Shown here one piece after another: positions 7,467 through 34,324 of a stretch of 64,000 nucleotides of DNA. Every line of letters begins with the position of its first letter. The first letter of the stretch is position 1. This DNA comes from Candidatus Eiseniibacteriota bacterium (lineage in GTDB: Bacteria > Eisenbacteria > RBG-16-71-46). The notes under the pieces are model-generated. The model was not told the origin of the DNA and ran no database searches. It was given only the letters and a program-made list of their open reading frames with translations. Where the stretch lies: NCBI GenBank assembly GCA_016215625.1, contig JACRIW010000048.1, forward strand, positions 1 through 64,000. The letters run 5' to 3'. Both the position numbers and the translations under genes were made by a program.

Positions 7467-9986
7467 TCAGCGCGTGACGAAGATCTTCCGCGTCGCGGTG
7501 ACTTCGCCCGCGCGCACGCGCGCGAAATAGACCCCGCTCGGTGCGCGGCGGCCGTCCGGCAGGCGCAGGTCCCACTGCACGCGATGCGCCCCGGCGGCTT
7601 GCATGCGTGCCGGGAGCAGGTCGCGCACGAGACGCCCATTCACGTCGAGCAACTGGGCGGAGGCGACGGCGCCCGAACCGAGGCGGTACTCGAGCGTGAC
7701 CGGGCCGTGCGCGGGATTCGGCGCGGGCGCACGCAGGAAGAGTGCGCCTTCCGCCTGCGGTCCGGGCCCGGCCACGCTTCCCGGGGACAGCGTCCTGTTC
7801 CGCAGCCACTGGATGTGCGAACTGCCGTGCGATGCCGCGACGAGATCGAGATCGCCGTCGTCGTCGACGTCGGCGGCTGCGACCGACCCCGCCTGGGCCA
7901 TCACGCCGAAGCGCCCGGCGTTCTCGAGCGTCCCGGATCCCGGCAGGCCGCGGTGTACGGCCAGATGCGCCGAATACGACAGCGCCATCACGTCCTTTTC
8001 ACCGTCGCCGTCGACGTCCGCCACCGTGAGGCGCCGCGGCGTGTGAACGCTCGGGAAATCGACCGGCGCGTCGAAGGAACCGCCGCCGAGGTTCGGCAGC
8101 ACGGACAACACGCCGTTCTGCCCGGCCGAAACGATGTCGAGCTCACCGTCGCCCGTGATGTCCGTCAGCGCGACGTCCTGCGGCGGACCGACGGACGTGA
8201 GGAGGAGCAGCGAAGGATCGAAGCCGTACGCTCCGTCGCCCGGGAACACTTCGAACGTCGAGCTGCAGAGCATCGTCACCACGATGTCCGGAATGCCGTC
8301 CATGGTGACGTCCCCGATCGCGGCGCGCGAAGGGCAGGAGCCCGTGGCCGGGATGAACGTCGGGTTGGAGTACCCGCTCGAACTGAGATGCACGCTGATG
8401 CCGGGAGTGAACTGCGGACGCGAGGGCGCCCCGAGTCCCGGGGCGGTCTCGATGCCACCGCTGCACACGAGCACGATGTCGTCCTGCCCGTCACCGTCGA
8501 GGTTGCCGACCGCGATCGAGATGGGATACCCGGTGATGCTGCTGGACACGTCGGGACCGAAATCGCGGTTGTGGCCGTTCGGCATGATCAGCAGGCCGCC
8601 GCTCGTGAAGCACATGGCCACGTCCGGATAGTCGTCCGAGTCGAACTTGCCGACGGCGAGACCGCTCGGGGCCTGCGGGAGCGGATAGGACACCGGAAAG
8701 CCCAGCGTGTGGAAGGGCGTCTGCCAGAGCACGGACACGGCGGGATCCCCGTCCCCGCCCTGCACGAGGTCCGTGCGTCCGTCGAGGTCGAGGTCCGCGG
8801 CGAGCACTTCGGCGCCGAAACCGGCCGTGATGCGCTCGTCCTGCCCGAACGTGCCGGCGCCGTTTCCGTGGAACGCGAGGAGTCCGGCGCCGTCGCTCGA
8901 GTACGTCAGCAGGTCGAGCGGGCCCCCGTCCCAGTCCGCGAGCACGAGCGCGTCGTTCGCATGGACGTCCGGCAACAGGCCGAAATCGGGCGTGAACGCC
9001 CCGGTGCCGTCGCCCAGCAGCACGCGGGACTGGTTGCCTCCGAGGACGAGGTCGGGATGCGTGTCACCGTTCACGTCGGCGACTCGCAGGACGAAGGCCA
9101 CGCGTGCCGGATCGGCGCCGTGGAACGAGGGGTACGAGAATCCCCCCGCACCGTCGGCGAGGTACACGCCGACACCGTAGCCGTCACCGGAGCTCATGAG
9201 GAGGTCGCGCCGCCCGTCGTGGTCGACGTCGGCACACGCGAGGCTCGTGCCGTAGAGCGACGGATTGGGCAGCGTCCAGGTGGAGGTCGTCCCGCCACCG
9301 GGATCGGTGTACAGGATCGAGAGCACGTGAATGAAGTCGTGCGACAGCACGAGATCGTCGAGCCCGTCCCCGTTCAGGTCGCCGGCCGCGATCGCCGCCG
9401 GACCCGAGAGCGTCGCCTCCGAAAGCGGCGCGACGAGCGCTCCGCCGGGCGTCGCGAAATACTTCTGGAGGGACGCCGAGTAGTACGAGAGCGAGACGAG
9501 ATCGATCGGCGCGGCCCCATCGAGGTCGGCGGTCACGAGCCACAGCGCCCCGAAGGGGGCCGGGCGTGTGTACGAGGACGGGAAGGCGCCCGTGCCGTCG
9601 CCGGACAGCACGAGCAGTTCGTCGGCGGACGTCAGGCATGCGAGGTCGAGGTGGCCGTCGCCATCGAGGTCGGCCGAAAGCATCTCGTGCACGAGGGTCG
9701 TGAGCGGCAGTCGCGCGTTCTCCTCGAACTCGTGCGAAGGAGCCTGGCGCAGGAAGACGAGTTCCATGCCGGTCGAGGCGACGACGGCATCGATGCGCCC
9801 GTCCTCGTCGAAGTCGCCCGTCGCGAACGCGGAGTTCTGGAGCGAGGCCGGGAACTCACGGAAGGGCGCATTGAAAGGCGCGAGGGCGAGCGCGGGGGCC
9901 GCGAGCACGGCGCAGGCGAACCCCGTGAGTGCGACTGCGGCCCGAAGGCGGACGACGAATCCGGAGCGAACAGCTCGAACGGCCAT
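7467..9986 (-). CDS. Secreted FG-GAP/VCBS-repeat protein with FlgD-like C-terminus
   Basis: The 839-residue protein has a signal peptide and then about a dozen FG-GAP/VCBS repeats forming a beta-propeller. Each repeat has a calcium loop of the type DLDGDGHLDL, DVDHDGRRDL or DVDGDGEKDV. The last 80 residues are a FlgD-type Ig domain (LLDVNGRLVRDLL, then GVYFARVRAG), which in FCB bacteria is found at the C-terminus of exported proteins and is thought to act in surface retention or sorting. I placed the start at the ATG at 9986, just before the signal peptide, although the frame is open 93 codons further. It stands alone, with a terminator at its end. Binding partner unknown. Confidence 0.88.
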   Translation of the reverse strand: MAVRAVRSGFVVRLRAAVALTGFACAVLAAPALALAPFNAPFREFPASLQNSAFATGDFDEDGRIDAVVASTGMELVFLRQAPSHEFEENARLPLTTLVHEMLSADLDGDGHLDLACLTSADELLVLSGDGTGAFPSSYTRPAPFGALWLVTADLDGAAPIDLVSLSYYSASLQKYFATPGGALVAPLSEATLSGPAAIAAGDLNGDGLDDLVLSHDFIHVLSILYTDPGGGTTSTWTLPNPSLYGTSLACADVDHDGRRDLLMSSGDGYGVGVYLADGAGGFSYPSFHGADPARVAFVLRVADVNGDTHPDLVLGGNQSRVLLGDGTGAFTPDFGLLPDVHANDALVLADWDGGPLDLLTYSSDGAGLLAFHGNGAGTFGQDERITAGFGAEVLAADLDLDGRTDLVQGGDGDPAVSVLWQTPFHTLGFPVSYPLPQAPSGLAVGKFDSDDYPDVAMCFTSGGLLIMPNGHNRDFGPDVSSSITGYPISIAVGNLDGDGQDDIVLVCSGGIETAPGLGAPSRPQFTPGISVHLSSSGYSNPTFIPATGSCPSRAAIGDVTMDGIPDIVVTMLCSSTFEVFPGDGAYGFDPSLLLLTSVGPPQDVALTDITGDGELDIVSAGQNGVLSVLPNLGGGSFDAPVDFPSVHTPRRLTVADVDGDGEKDVMALSYSAHLAVHRGLPGSGTLENAGRFGVMAQAGSVAAADVDDDGDLDLVAASHGSSHIQWLRNRTLSPGSVAGPGPQAEGALFLRAPAPNPAHGPVTLEYRLGSGAVASAQLLDVNGRLVRDLLPARMQAAGAHRVQWDLRLPDGRRAPSGVYFARVRAGEVTATRKIFVTR

Positions 9987-25361: not shown

Positions 25362-26261
25362 TCAGGCGTCCACGACCCAACCCGTCACGCCCTGCGCCTC
25401 CAGGAACGCACGCGCGCCACGGCCCTGCAGGATGGCCAGCGTCGCGAGCGTTCCCGCTTCGATGCAGGTCGCGGCCAGCACGGTGACCGCACGCGGCGCG
25501 TCCACCACGGGCCAGCCGGTGCGCGGGTCCAGGATGTGGCCGAGGCGTCGCCCGCGCCACGTCACGTAGCGTCGCGCGTCCCCGCTCGTCGCGAGCGCGC
25601 CGCGTTCGAGTTCGATGCGCTGGACGACGCCCTCGCCGGTCCGCTCCGGATCGTCGACGCCGACGATCCAGGGCGCTCCGCCACGACGCGGCGCGTTGGC
25701 GACGAGGTCGCCCCCGAAGTTCACGAGGCACGCCACCGGCGATCGCTCCGCGAGCAGCGCCGCCGCGCTGTCCACCGCGTACTCCTTGCCGATGCCGCCG
25801 AAGTCCAGTTCCATGCCCTCGGGCAGCACGAGCGTCCGGCCGTCCCACGTCACGCGCAGCCAGCCGACGTGTAAGAGCGCTTCGGCGATCACGGTTTCGT
25901 CGGGCGAGGCCTCGCCGCCGTCGAAGCGCCACGCGCGCCGCAGGACGCCCGAGGTGACGTCGAACGACCCACCCGAAAGTTCGAAGCAGGCGGCCGCGTA
26001 GCCCAGCAGCCGGGCCGTCTCGGCGTCGGGTTCCCATGGCGTCCCACGCGCCGCCTGAATGTCGTGTACGACGCTGTCGTCGCGGTAGCGGCTGAACTTC
26101 TTCTCGATCCGCCGCGCTTCCGTGCGTGCGGCGCGCACGAGGTCGGCGGCCACGCGCCTGTGGTCGGTGTCGACGAGCACCTCGCACGGACTCGCCATCG
26201 CGGTGAAGCGCCCGGCCCAGACGTCGCCGAGACGCTCCAGCCGCGGCGTGTTGCCGTTCAC
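25362..26261 (-). CDS. apbE: FAD:protein FMN transferase (ApbE)
   Basis: The approximately 299-residue protein attaches FMN covalently to Ser/Thr of target proteins. ApbE hallmarks are GGSFDVTSGVL, DFGGIGKEYAVD, VNFGGDLVAN and GHILDPRTGWPV, the last close to the magnesium site. I chose the GTG at 26261, which overlaps the stop of the DUF3570 gene (GTGA). A GTG at 26264 and an ATG at 26276 are alternatives. No signal peptide is seen with any of them, whereas many ApbE proteins are exported, so the true start or location needs checking. It is the last gene of the thioredoxin-DUF4266-DUF3570 operon. Confidence 0.92.
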   Translation of the reverse strand: MNGNTPRLERLGDVWAGRFTAMASPCEVLVDTDHRRVAADLVRAARTEARRIEKKFSRYRDDSVVHDIQAARGTPWEPDAETARLLGYAAACFELSGGSFDVTSGVLRRAWRFDGGEASPDETVIAEALLHVGWLRVTWDGRTLVLPEGMELDFGGIGKEYAVDSAAALLAERSPVACLVNFGGDLVANAPRRGGAPWIVGVDDPERTGEGVVQRIELERGALATSGDARRYVTWRGRRLGHILDPRTGWPVVDAPRAVTVLAATCIEAGTLATLAILQGRGARAFLEAQGVTGWVVDA

Positions 26262-27529
26262 CACCCCACCGACCATCCGAGCATCAGCGTCCCGGTGTTC
26301 ACCGCGGGCGCGAGGTTGTACGTGCGCTGCGAACCCACCGCGTCGCCGGGGAAACCGCGCCCCCACTGGCGCATGTATTCGCCACGTACGGTCAGTTGTC
26401 CGGGTACGCTCACGAGATCGAAGCCGTACGTCACGCCCACGGTGGCGGTGTTCAGGTCACCGAGGCGGTAGTCGCTCGTCGCGAACCGCGGCTTCTCCCG
26501 GCCCTCGACCAGCCCGTAGCAGTAGAAGTCCGCAGCGCCCTGGCGCGAGAAGCGCAGGTGCGGCTGCACGAAATGCGACGCGTCGAAGTCGTGGCGCAGC
26601 CGGAAGTCGGCGGTGTGCGCCTCAACGCCCCAGTCGTCCCAGTAGTACCGGTACGAGAGGTACGAAACGTCCTCGGTGTGGTGGTAGACCGAAGACAGCA
26701 GCACGTCGCGGCGCACGCGGCGGTCCGGCCGCTTCTCGTGCAGTTCGCCGGTCGTGTGCCCCGTGAGCGGGTCGATCGTGCTCACGACCTTGTACGGATC
26801 CGTGAGGTAGCCCCACTCCTCGCCGTACGTGCCGGTCGCGCCGAGCAGCCAGCGGCGCGTCATCACGCGCGACGTGCCCACGAGCCAGCTGCGCGCGTGC
26901 TTGTCGTTCGCGTTCACGCCGGTGCGATCGTCGGCGGTGAACGGCTCGCGAGTGCCGTCGAGCGGTGTCACGACGTCCGCGTTCGCGGACGCGCCCAAAG
27001 TGAACGTGGACAAGCGCTGGAAAGCCTCGAGCGAGAGCTGGCCGCGCTCGCCGAGCGAACGGTAGTCCGACTCCTTCGAGAAGTGGCCGCCCACGCTCGC
27101 CGTCAGGTGCGAGCCGAAGGGCTGCGCGTATTCGAGGTCCACGGCGCCGCGCATGTCCCGGAAGTCCGTGAGCGGCAGCTTGCCGGCGGGCACGGTCTTC
27201 GTGTTGCCGGACGGCGTCGTCGTGGTCTGCACGAGGCCCGAGGGCTGCGCGCCGCTCGGCGAAGCGCCGGTGATCGCATCGAAGTCCACCTGCGCGGTGA
27301 AGCTGTTGCCCTTCGCGAACGTCCGCGTGACGCGCGCCATCGGCTCGACGACGCTCGTGCGCTGCAGCTCGCCGTAGAGCAACCCGGACGTGTCGAGCTG
27401 CCAGCGCGGAACGTCGGAAGCGGCAGCGGTCGTCGCGACGGCGCCGCCCGCGAGCAACGCGAGCGCCGCCCCGCGCAGCGCGGCACGCAGCGGCGAGGGT
27501 GCCGGGACCGGGGAGTCCGTCAGTTGCAT
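26258..27529 (-). CDS. DUF3570 family outer-membrane barrel with ApbE-type motif
   Basis: The 423-residue exported protein matches DUF3570. A signal peptide (about 1-37) precedes many amphipathic strands with aromatic girdles; the last residues (LMLGWSVGW) suit an outer-membrane beta-barrel. Family landmarks include EWGYLTDPYKVVSTID and HEKRPDRRVRRD. At residues 84-90 the sequence DAITGAS nearly fits the ApbE flavinylation motif DxxTGAT, in a family always seen with ApbE nearby. It overlaps the DUF4266 gene by 10 bases and the ApbE gene by 4 bases. Its function is unknown; a flavinylated barrel is an inference. Confidence 0.85.
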   Translation of the reverse strand: MQLTDSPVPAPSPLRAALRGAALALLAGGAVATTAAASDVPRWQLDTSGLLYGELQRTSVVEPMARVTRTFAKGNSFTAQVDFDAITGASPSGAQPSGLVQTTTTPSGNTKTVPAGKLPLTDFRDMRGAVDLEYAQPFGSHLTASVGGHFSKESDYRSLGERGQLSLEAFQRLSTFTLGASANADVVTPLDGTREPFTADDRTGVNANDKHARSWLVGTSRVMTRRWLLGATGTYGEEWGYLTDPYKVVSTIDPLTGHTTGELHEKRPDRRVRRDVLLSSVYHHTEDVSYLSYRYYWDDWGVEAHTADFRLRHDFDASHFVQPHLRFSRQGAADFYCYGLVEGREKPRFATSDYRLGDLNTATVGVTYGFDLVSVPGQLTVRGEYMRQWGRGFPGDAVGSQRTYNLAPAVNTGTLMLGWSVGW

Positions 27530-27753
27530 CCACAACCTCCGCCACCCACGGACATGCCGCCCACGGCGGCCTCCTTGCTGAAGTAGATGTGGCCGTCGAC
27601 GGCGGTCTCCAGCGGCAGCGCCGCGAATCGCATGCGCTTGTCCGCCATGAGATCGCGGTCCCACGGCTTCACCGACATGGCGGCGCATCCGGACGAGAGG
27701 GCCGCCAGTGCGGCGGCGAGCCACAGCACGAACAAACGACGGGATCGGTTCAT
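27520..27753 (-). CDS. DUF4266 lipoprotein with Gly/Cys tail
   Basis: The 77-residue protein is a short lipoprotein (LSSGC lipobox, lipidated C23) of the DUF4266 family. The mature 55 residues contain MSVKPWDRDLMADKRMRF and HIYFSKEAAVGGMSVGG and end in GGGGCGCN. The codons for the tail also provide the GGAGG ribosome-binding site of the DUF3570 gene, whose start overlaps by 10 bases. It follows the thioredoxin gene with an ATGA overlap. Function unknown; it may be a partner or substrate of the flavin/thioredoxin pair. Confidence 0.85.
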   Translation of the reverse strand: MNRSRRLFVLWLAAALAALSSGCAAMSVKPWDRDLMADKRMRFAALPLETAVDGHIYFSKEAAVGGMSVGGGGCGCN

Positions 27754-28271
27754 CGGGCCAGTTCCTCCTCGATGCGCTTTTCGAACTCCGCGGTCTTCGC
27801 CGGATCGAACCCGACGTGCGCGTACACGACGCGGCCGTCACGACCGACGAGGAACGTGGACGGCATGCCCTTCACGCGGTAGGCGGACGCCACCTTGCCC
27901 GCAGGGTCGAACGCGATGGCGAAGGGCGCCGGGACCTGCGCGAGGAACGCGTCCGCGGCTCCACGCGACTTGTCGACATTGACGCCGACCACGCTCAGCC
28001 CCGCATTCGCGTGCTTTTCCTGCAGCGCGGCGAGCCACGGAAACGACTTGCGGCACGGCACGCACCACGACGCCCAGAAATCCACGAGCACGACGCGTCC
28101 GCGGAGCGAATCCGAGACGACCTCGGCGCCGCGGCCGGGAAGCCGGAATGAAGGAGCGAGCGCCGCGGGCTCGTCCTTCGGGGCACCCGCGAAGGCGACG
28201 GCGCACGTGAGCACGAGCAGGAACAAAACGGCGAACCACGGCGGGCGGCATTGCGACACTGGTCGGGACAA
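27750..28271 (-). CDS. TlpA-like thioredoxin-fold protein
   Basis: The product (173 residues from the TTG at 28271) is exported: a signal peptide is followed by a TlpA/ResA-type thioredoxin domain. The active site is WCVPC after VVLVDFWAS, the cis-proline loop is GMPSTF, and a GRVVYAHVGF segment is typical. GGGGGAG lies five bases upstream of the TTG, which is why I chose it; a GTG at 28259 or one at 28346 are alternatives. It would reduce disulphides in the periplasm, perhaps those of the DUF4266 CGC tail. It is the first gene of the ApbE operon. Confidence 0.85.
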   Translation of the reverse strand: MSRPVSQCRPPWFAVLFLLVLTCAVAFAGAPKDEPAALAPSFRLPGRGAEVVSDSLRGRVVLVDFWASWCVPCRKSFPWLAALQEKHANAGLSVVGVNVDKSRGAADAFLAQVPAPFAIAFDPAGKVASAYRVKGMPSTFLVGRDGRVVYAHVGFDPAKTAEFEKRIEEELAR

Positions 28272-32401: not shown

Positions 32402-32785
32402 TCAGCCCGCCTTGCGGATCCCGATGTGTTCGCGGAACTCGCGTTCGACCTGTGCGGGGTCGTGCGAGTTCAGGAGCACCATGTTCCGGAGGTGCTCGAA
32501 GCTCTCGAGCGGAAGCTCGAAGAACTCGATCCCCATGCCGTCCGGGTCGGACCGCACGATCCGCGCTTCGACCGTGAAATGAAGCGCGCTGTCCTCATCC
32601 TCCGTGAACAGCGTCAGGTGATAGCGCCCGCCTTCGGGGAGCCCCTCGAACGTCGAGGAGTGGCAGCCCCGCATGCTGAGGTTGTTGATCTCGGCCGTCA
32701 GGAGTTCGCCCGAGTCGTCGCGAAACGTGCCCCAGATGTGGATCGGGACGCGGGTGAACTCCCGGTGGAACGGAAAGTCGGTCAT
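32402..32785 (-). CDS. PilZ-domain c-di-GMP-binding protein
   Basis: The 127-residue protein is a single PilZ domain. It has RxxxR (R8-EFT-R12) and NxSxxG (NNLSMRG), the two c-di-GMP-binding elements. The remaining beta-barrel ends with a C-terminal helix. Such stand-alone PilZ proteins transmit the c-di-GMP signal to motility or envelope systems. The window has a type IV pilus operon, although distant. A GGGGGGC run before the ATG at 32785 decides the start over an ATG five codons earlier. Confidence 0.88.
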   Translation of the reverse strand: MTDFPFHREFTRVPIHIWGTFRDDSGELLTAEINNLSMRGCHSSTFEGLPEGGRYHLTLFTEDEDSALHFTVEARIVRSDPDGMGIEFFELPLESFEHLRNMVLLNSHDPAQVEREFREHIGIRKAG

Positions 32786-32944
32786 CGCTCTGCCCCCCAT
32801 CGGCGCGCTCCGGCGCTGGCCTGCCCCCTGCAGTCGCGAGGCCCTTCGAGTTTCGGTTCCCCTGGTGCCGCGCTGGAGGGGCGATTTGCCCCCTCCGGCG
32901 GCTGCCCTTCCGAGCGCGCGAGCGGCTCTGCTAGTTTTCCTCCC

Positions 32945-34324
32945 ATGACGACTTCCCACCGCGTTTTGCCCGCCCTCGCGCTCGCCGCGATGCTGCTCAC
33001 GACCGCCGCGCCGGTGTCGTCGGCGCCCGCCGCCCACTCCGCCCCCGCCGCGCCTTCGGCGCCTTCGGCGCCCGTACGCTGGCTCCACGACGACTACGCC
33101 CGCGCCGTCGCGATCGCTCGTGAGCGCAAGGTGCCCCTCTTCGTCGACATCTGGGCGCCGTGGTGCCACACCTGCCGGTCGATGTGGGCCTTCGTCCTCA
33201 ACGACCCGACGCTCGCACGGCACGACCGCGAGTTCGTTTTCCTGAGCGTGGACTCGGAAAAGCCGAAGAACGCCGCCTTCCGGGCGAAGTACGTGACCGA
33301 CGCCCTCCCCTCGTTCTACGTCATCGATCCCGTGGCCGAGCGCATCACCGTGCGCTGGGTGGGCGGCATGACCGTGAACCAGCTGCATGCGCTGCTCGAC
33401 GACGCGGCCCACGGAGGCCATGCCCCGCGCGCCCTGCTCGCCGTGATCGCACGCGCCGACAGCCTCTACGGCGTCCGCGACTTCTCCGGCGCCGCGGCCG
33501 CGTTCGGCGAGGTGCTCGCCGCGGCCCCGACGGACTGGAAGGGCTGGGCGCGCATCGTCGAGTCGCGCATGTACGCGCTGACGAGCTCCGGCCAGTACGC
33601 CGCGGGCGTCGAGTTGGCCGAAGCCACGCTCCCGCGACTCGGCCGCTCGCCCTCGGCGCTCAACGTGGCCGCGAGCGCACTCGGCTGCGCGCGAGAGCTT
33701 CCCGCCGGCGACTCCTCCCGTCCGGCGCGCGTCGCCGCGCTCGAGAAGGCGACCCGCGAACTGGTCGCGGACTTCACTTTCGCGACGTCCGACGACGACC
33801 GCTCGGGGGCCTGGATCGAGATCCTCTCGACGCGGCAGGATGCGAAAGACTCGCTGGGCGCCCGGACCGCCGCGCTCGACTGGGTGGCCTTCCTCGAAGG
33901 CGCCGCGCGGGCCGCGAAGACGCCGGAACAGCGCGCCGTGTTCGATGCGCACCGGCTGACGGCCTATCTCGAGCTGAACGAGCCCTCGCGCGCGGTGGAC
34001 ATGCTGCTTCAGACCCAGCGCGACTTCCCGGACGACTACAACCCTTACCAGCGGCTCGCGACGGCCTACAAGGCCATGGGCCGCTGGGAGGACGCGCTCG
34101 CCCAGTCCGATCTGGCGATGGCGCGGAACGACGCCGGTCCGCGGAAGATGCTCCTCTTCACCACGCGGGCCGACATCTTCGCCGGCAAGAAGGACCGCGC
34201 GATGGAGAAGCGCGCGCTCGAAGAGGCCATCGCGTTCGGCGAGAGCATCCCGGCGTCCCAGCGCCCGGCGCGCACGATCGACGGACTGCGCAAGCGCCTC
34301 GAGAAACTGAACGCGACGCCCTGA
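32945..34324 (+). CDS. Exported thioredoxin-like protein with TPR repeats
   Basis: The 459-residue protein has a signal peptide and then an Ala/Pro-rich linker. A thioredoxin-like domain follows (about 45-160) with the active site WCHTC after LFVDIWAP and the cis-proline loop ALPSF. It resembles the DsbD C-terminal/thioredoxin_7 type. TPR-like helices make up residues 165-450 (GWARIVESRMYALTSSGQYAAG, NPYQRLATAYKAMGRWEDA). It probably acts in periplasmic redox or cytochrome maturation as a scaffold. A -10-like TAGTTT ends seven bases before the ATG and no ribosome-binding site is seen. Confidence 0.85.
   Translation: MTTSHRVLPALALAAMLLTTAAPVSSAPAAHSAPAAPSAPSAPVRWLHDDYARAVAIARERKVPLFVDIWAPWCHTCRSMWAFVLNDPTLARHDREFVFLSVDSEKPKNAAFRAKYVTDALPSFYVIDPVAERITVRWVGGMTVNQLHALLDDAAHGGHAPRALLAVIARADSLYGVRDFSGAAAAFGEVLAAAPTDWKGWARIVESRMYALTSSGQYAAGVELAEATLPRLGRSPSALNVAASALGCARELPAGDSSRPARVAALEKATRELVADFTFATSDDDRSGAWIEILSTRQDAKDSLGARTAALDWVAFLEGAARAAKTPEQRAVFDAHRLTAYLELNEPSRAVDMLLQTQRDFPDDYNPYQRLATAYKAMGRWEDALAQSDLAMARNDAGPRKMLLFTTRADIFAGKKDRAMEKRALEEAIAFGESIPASQRPARTIDGLRKRLEKLNATP

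Follow-up and report, generated by a model that had tools for sequence, protein, structure and literature searches.

A DUF3570 flavinylation cluster with a predicted outer-membrane barrel and a signal-less ApbE clade lacking the magnesium-binding aspartate

Known DUF3570 clusters and the operon in the window

Gene clusters encoding ApbE, DUF3570, a thioredoxin and DUF4266 were described by Meheust et al. in 2021, as 'DsbD systems' together with 316 clusters lacking DsbD, and ApbE was shown by experiment to flavinylate DUF3570 in Chlorobium luteolum (PMC8238504). That paper makes no mention of a barrel or porin. It was the only paper returned by a full-text literature search for DUF3570 or DUF4266, and DUF3570 is not discussed in a follow-up from 2024 (PMC11334425).

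The locus considered here lies in a window of 64,000 nucleotides, the whole stretch of DNA analysed, from a Candidatus Eiseniibacteriota bacterium (contig JACRIW010000048.1). A preliminary description of this DNA had placed four overlapping genes there, and this is confirmed: all are on the minus strand, each has a strong Pfam match (Table 1), and the overlaps, in the order thioredoxin, DUF4266, DUF3570 and ApbE, are of 4 (ATGA), 10 and 4 (GTGA) bases. The overlaps suggest translational coupling, not stoichiometry, and the accompanying statement that the products are made in a fixed ratio went too far.

Table 1. Features of the operon, in window coordinates
Feature	Position	Strand	Evidence
TlpA-like thioredoxin, periplasmic, with signal peptide; starts with TTG at 28271, preceded by the ribosome-binding site GGGGGAG, alternative GTG at 28259, stop end at 27750	27750-28271	minus	Pfam Redoxin 1.5e-23, AhpC-TSA 1e-20
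Thioredoxin CVPC active site	28053-28064	minus	
DUF4266 small lipoprotein	27520-27753	minus	Pfam DUF4266 1.8e-19
DUF4266 lipobox Cys23	27685-27687	minus	
DUF4266 C-terminal CGC	27526-27534	minus	CxC conservation
DUF3570, predicted 16-strand outer-membrane beta-barrel, ApbE substrate	26258-27529	minus	Pfam DUF3570 7.3e-83, AF2 pLDDT 93.5, Foldseek porins
DAITGAS (flavinylation motif 1), residues 84-90, with Ser90 predicted to carry FMN; at the lumen-facing end of strand 3	27260-27280	minus	motif in 82/82 relatives, orientation
VQTTTTPSG, residues 100-108, a degenerate second motif where two-site relatives have motif 2	27206-27232	minus	
FMN transferase of the ApbE family, lacking a signal peptide; dedicated subfamily; GTG start	25362-26261	minus	Pfam ApbE 2.5e-63, tree
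ApbE Gly in place of the catalytic Asp that binds Mg (Asp301 in FmnB, Asp285 in V. cholerae ApbE)	25452-25454	minus	
ApbE clade-specific Cys in MASPC	26184-26186	minus	
Second clade-specific ApbE Cys, that of TCxEAG, which precedes the EAG Glu by two residues	25464-25466	minus	

The operon resembles the published clusters in that the same four families occur together, DUF3570 carries a flavinylation motif, DUF4266 ends in a CxC and DsbD is encoded elsewhere in the genome. It differs from them in several respects. DUF3570 has two [S/T]GA[S/T] motifs in the published clusters, whereas the window protein has one canonical motif and a degenerate motif 2; the operon is filed as a variant of the described system because of this degeneracy. 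The ApbE of the window lacks both signal peptide and catalytic aspartate, and its DsbD is not adjacent; DsbD directly adjoins the operon in 10 sampled loci. Finally, the thioredoxin family listed by Meheust et al. is PF13899 (PMC8238504), while that of the window belongs to the Redoxin/AhpC-TSA type. Since the latter falls below the NCBIfam cut-offs for ResA (88 against 170 bits), DsbE (79 against 123) and TlpA (65 against 230), 'TlpA-like' is the right level of description. A large protein combining a Thioredoxin_7 (PF13899) domain with TPR repeats is encoded about 4.2 kb from the operon (32426-34324, plus strand).

The preliminary description had named a conserved neighbourhood in related genomes as a test of its reading, and such a neighbourhood was found. 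Among 97 sampled loci from several phyla, many of them on contigs that end inside the cluster, DUF4266 lies directly upstream of DUF3570 in 94, ApbE directly downstream in 70, and all four genes stand in order in 63; judged from these loci, the gene order is conserved far beyond chance. Loci with the DUF3570 type of the window occur in the GTDB genome set in Eisenbacteria, Acidobacteriota, Nitrospirota, Zixibacteria and many Proteobacteria, and a search for plasmid relatives found none. Its nearest relatives place the window itself in the Eisenbacteria. In a Zhongshania locus (L125, 6180-10450) the thioredoxin–DUF4266–DUF3570 part is duplicated in tandem, with DsbD and one ApbE behind it.

The cluster is very likely a DUF3570 flavinylation module. 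The four-gene cluster and most of what the preliminary description made of it were already published in 2021. Its statement that no known ApbE substrate is encoded here was wrong, given the result in C. luteolum. The suggestion that DUF3570 or DUF4266 is flavinylated survives for DUF3570, on the strength of the C. luteolum experiment and the retained DAITGAS, and finds no support for DUF4266; the idea of a thioredoxin-maintained envelope redox component agrees with the published proposal (PMC8238504). What does appear to be new, and undescribed in the literature searched, is the pairing of a single-site barrel with an ApbE clade devoid of both signal peptide and catalytic aspartate.

The predicted barrel and its flavinylation motifs

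An AlphaFold2 model of the window DUF3570, built from an alignment of 66 relatives, has a pLDDT of 93.5 and a pTM of 0.88. It consists of 16 long strands joined by long loops, all on one side, and by short turns on the opposite side, as is typical of an outer-membrane barrel; the term 'barrel', already used in the preliminary description, is now backed by a structure model. Foldseek searches of the PDB with this model returned OmpG, FadL, Occ channels, AlgE and others at E values of 1e-13 to 1e-10. The query TM-scores were all below 0.5, so that DUF3570 belongs to the general barrel class while being close to no single solved member. The sole match sought as a solved sequence relative had an E value of 0.5, which is chance level, and was discarded. 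Most DUF3570 relatives end in Phe, Trp or Tyr. DUF3570 can be predicted with high confidence to be an outer-membrane barrel.

Residue alternation in the strands separates a lipid-facing from a lumen-facing side. The invariant in-strand residues fall on the lumen side, as do Asp84 and Ser90 of the flavinylation motif, which matches D-x-x-T-G-A-S perfectly. Ser90 stands where strand 3 leads into a long loop, and on these topological grounds it is strongly predicted to lie near the extracellular end of the barrel. There is good reason to expect that this serine carries the FMN.

Three types of DUF3570 can be distinguished by their motifs. In type A, to which the window protein belongs, motif 1 is present as D-x-x-[TS]-G-[ASP]-[ST] in 82/82 sequences (the window and an 80-locus sample, counted from the alignment), while the second position mostly reads Q-T-F-T-x-P-S-G and an Asp-containing motif 2 was found in 0/82. 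Type B, which is frequent in the same bacterial family, keeps only the second motif (V-D-A-I-T-T-A-S). Type C has both, for example D-x-I-S-x-A-S with D-G-V-T-S-A-T (L036, L136, L139, L140 and L141 among others). Some 15 sequences define type B and about 10 type C; a mixed alignment of the types contained no stretch conserved enough for scanning, so that the 80-locus sample is biased towards type A. Types A and B occur together in two genomes, G004 (L030 and L044, contig C89) and G009 (L029 and L043), and in the former a single contig carries both, approximately 18 kb apart at most. As the three types keep different motifs, lineages probably differ in how many flavins each barrel carries. The serine kept at the degenerate second position of type A could serve as a non-canonical second site.

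The ApbE clade linked to type A barrels

The window ApbE is an unmistakable family member by profile (PF02424, 2.5e-63) and matches ApbE structures in the PDB at E values down to 2.4e-36. It nevertheless departs from other ApbEs in two features that it shares with its clade. The first is the absence of an export signal: a hydrophobic signal segment was seen in 0 of about 70 ApbEs adjoining type A DUF3570, in which no more than a few dozen residues, mostly polar, precede the conserved domain, whereas 10/11 scored enzymes linked to types B and C have one. The second is the replacement of the Asp in the A-D-x-L-x-T motif of other ApbEs by Gly, found in all alignable type A enzymes (73 including duplicates, 68 non-redundant) and accompanied in 63/68 of the non-redundant ones by two new cysteines, in MASPC and TCxEAG. 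A tree built from 116 ApbEs sets the Gly group on one side of a branch with an SH-aLRT of 100, where a single change suffices. The ApbE of one divergent DUF3570 cluster (L142, 4375-5325) seems to have no signal peptide and keeps the catalytic Asp, so that the two losses can occur apart.

The missing residue is Asp301 in FmnB and Asp285 in Vibrio cholerae ApbE, where it coordinates both Mg ions, and enzymes with Ala in place of the Mg-coordinating residues lose most or all of their activity (PMC8906456; PMC12052999). Type A ApbEs could therefore be inactive or altered. One alternative holds that the operon homologue has ceased to be an FMN transferase, having become for example a flavin chaperone or a thiol-regulated regulator, and that DUF3570 is flavinylated in the periplasm by a second, canonical ApbE. 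It draws on the loss of the Asp, needed in FmnB, from every alignable member, and on the genome of the window itself, in which a second ApbE with a Tat-like signal could act as an alternative modifier. This enzyme (L159, G000:C39:14000-26000, 7499-8698, minus strand) lies in an RNF operon that also encodes an FMN_bind (RnfG-like) substrate for it. The clade has, however, kept the Ser and His of the Asp-Ser-His triad and the conserved Lys, only the Asp being missing. Furthermore, in eight genomes, mostly MAGs of which the completeness is not established and including three Thermoanaerobaculia and one Zixibacterium, the single ApbE match is of this kind and no FMN_bind protein was found; DUF3570 is thus the only recognised candidate substrate there, and its motif is kept in 82/82 type A sequences. 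On this evidence the non-transferase alternative is unlikely, and transfer of FMN by the dedicated ApbE is moderately favoured.

Where the transfer would take place is less clear-cut, and the cytoplasm, ahead of export, is given an even chance. Nearly all known ApbEs that act on exported substrates are periplasmic (PMC12052999), and the type A enzymes might likewise reach the periplasm by a route invisible in the N terminus, whether through a wrong start call, a carrier protein or some other means, with flavinylation occurring there as usual. This is improbable: in many type A loci the ApbE frame opens right after the DUF3570 stop, leaving 17-31 polar residues ahead of the conserved domain, and the conserved cysteines suit the reducing cytoplasm. 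The cytoplasmic reading assumes, on the other hand, that the Sec channel lets a chain carrying FMN pass, and a literature search on how far this channel tolerates bulky groups on side chains found no paper.

The closest precedent for an ApbE without a signal peptide is the cytosolic enzyme of Klebsiella pneumoniae, which flavinylates a soluble fumarate reductase (PMC12052999). That substrate is cytosolic, whereas the one candidate in the window is exported to the outer membrane; in addition, the window enzyme lacks the Mg-binding Asp.

A proposed redox path and its relation to known systems

The window DUF4266 ends in GGGGCGCN (CGCN), as the preliminary description had given it, and residue 23 is a Cys of the lipoprotein type. 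Nearly all of its relatives share the C-terminal CxC. A lipobox was recognised by pattern in 105/113, with mature chains of 51-62 residues and three cysteines, one for the lipid anchor and two in the terminal CxC, in 104/105. The flavinylation motif was found in 0/118 family members, on which ground DUF4266 was rejected as a flavinylation target. AlphaFold2 leaves the protein unfolded when modelled alone (pLDDT 55.9), with the Gly-rich tail the least ordered part, so no function can be read from a fold. The near-universal CxC fits a thiol-redox (or metal-binding) role, and we infer that DUF4266 is a tethered, flexible dithiol arm.

These elements can be assembled into an outer-membrane redox module, a reading which, taken whole, is slightly favoured. 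The dedicated ApbE would attach FMN to unfolded DUF3570 in the cytoplasm, in an active site remodelled after the loss of the Asp, perhaps by means of the two new cysteines; Sec export and barrel insertion would follow. The FMN on Ser90 would then point into the lumen, near the outside, among the invariant residues lining it. Electrons could pass from cytosolic thiols through DsbD and the TlpA-like thioredoxin to the CGC dithiol/disulfide of DUF4266, the flexible tail of which would reach into the barrel from the periplasm and exchange them with the FMN; such an exchange is given slightly less than an even chance. The flavin might give electrons to, or take them from, a partner at the cell surface, possibly a metal or an oxidant. 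The thiol part of this chain follows the published proposal (PMC8238504), whereas the step in the barrel lumen is put forward here.

The same components might instead handle metal, with the CxC tail of DUF4266 binding iron or copper, the thioredoxin keeping it reduced and the flavin barrel reducing or admitting the metal for uptake. CxC motifs can bind metals, and they also work as disulfides. QseBC/PmrAB-like two-component genes adjoin the operon in many gammaproteobacterial loci (L101, 3732-5803; L095, 2106-4164; L126, 9240-11401; and others), either divergent from it or directly downstream of apbE, and the VIT1 iron transporter is present in 25 published clusters (PMC8238504). Set against this, no metal transporter family recurs in the sampled loci, and none is present in the window operon. 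Metal handling as the function of the system is accordingly regarded as unlikely, while the two-component neighbours and the VIT1 links make metal a reasonable surface partner for the redox module, proving nothing. Genes resembling those for MsrP and MsrQ, of periplasmic methionine sulfoxide repair, were noticed by eye near the operon in 7-8 loci (L069, 4525-5490; L083, 3935-4549; similarly elsewhere).

In its most specific form, the proposal states that the flavin of an outer-membrane barrel is attached in the cytoplasm, ahead of export, by an Asp-less ApbE subfamily that has gained a Cys pair, the lumenal flavin being wired to a periplasmic dithiol lipopeptide. This remains tentative and would be held somewhat below even. 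To our knowledge, no pre-export covalent flavinylation of an exported protein is known so far; if true, the proposal would provide the first case, together with a second catalytic solution for ApbE. A natural clade without a supposedly essential residue and the usual export signal opens to direct test both the ApbE mechanism and the rule that places the flavinylation of exported proteins outside the cytosol. For a widespread envelope redox system, a concrete structural hypothesis is also provided: a lumenal flavin in an outer-membrane barrel, offering a heme-free electron path to the surface.

Barrels that hold a redox cofactor at the outer membrane, or across it, are familiar from the MtrB/PioB-type barrels of extracellular electron transfer. 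The comparison concerns how the systems may work, as they have no sequence relation. The cofactors are hemes in MtrB/PioB, whereas in the window their place would be taken by a covalent flavin in the barrel together with a dithiol lipopeptide.
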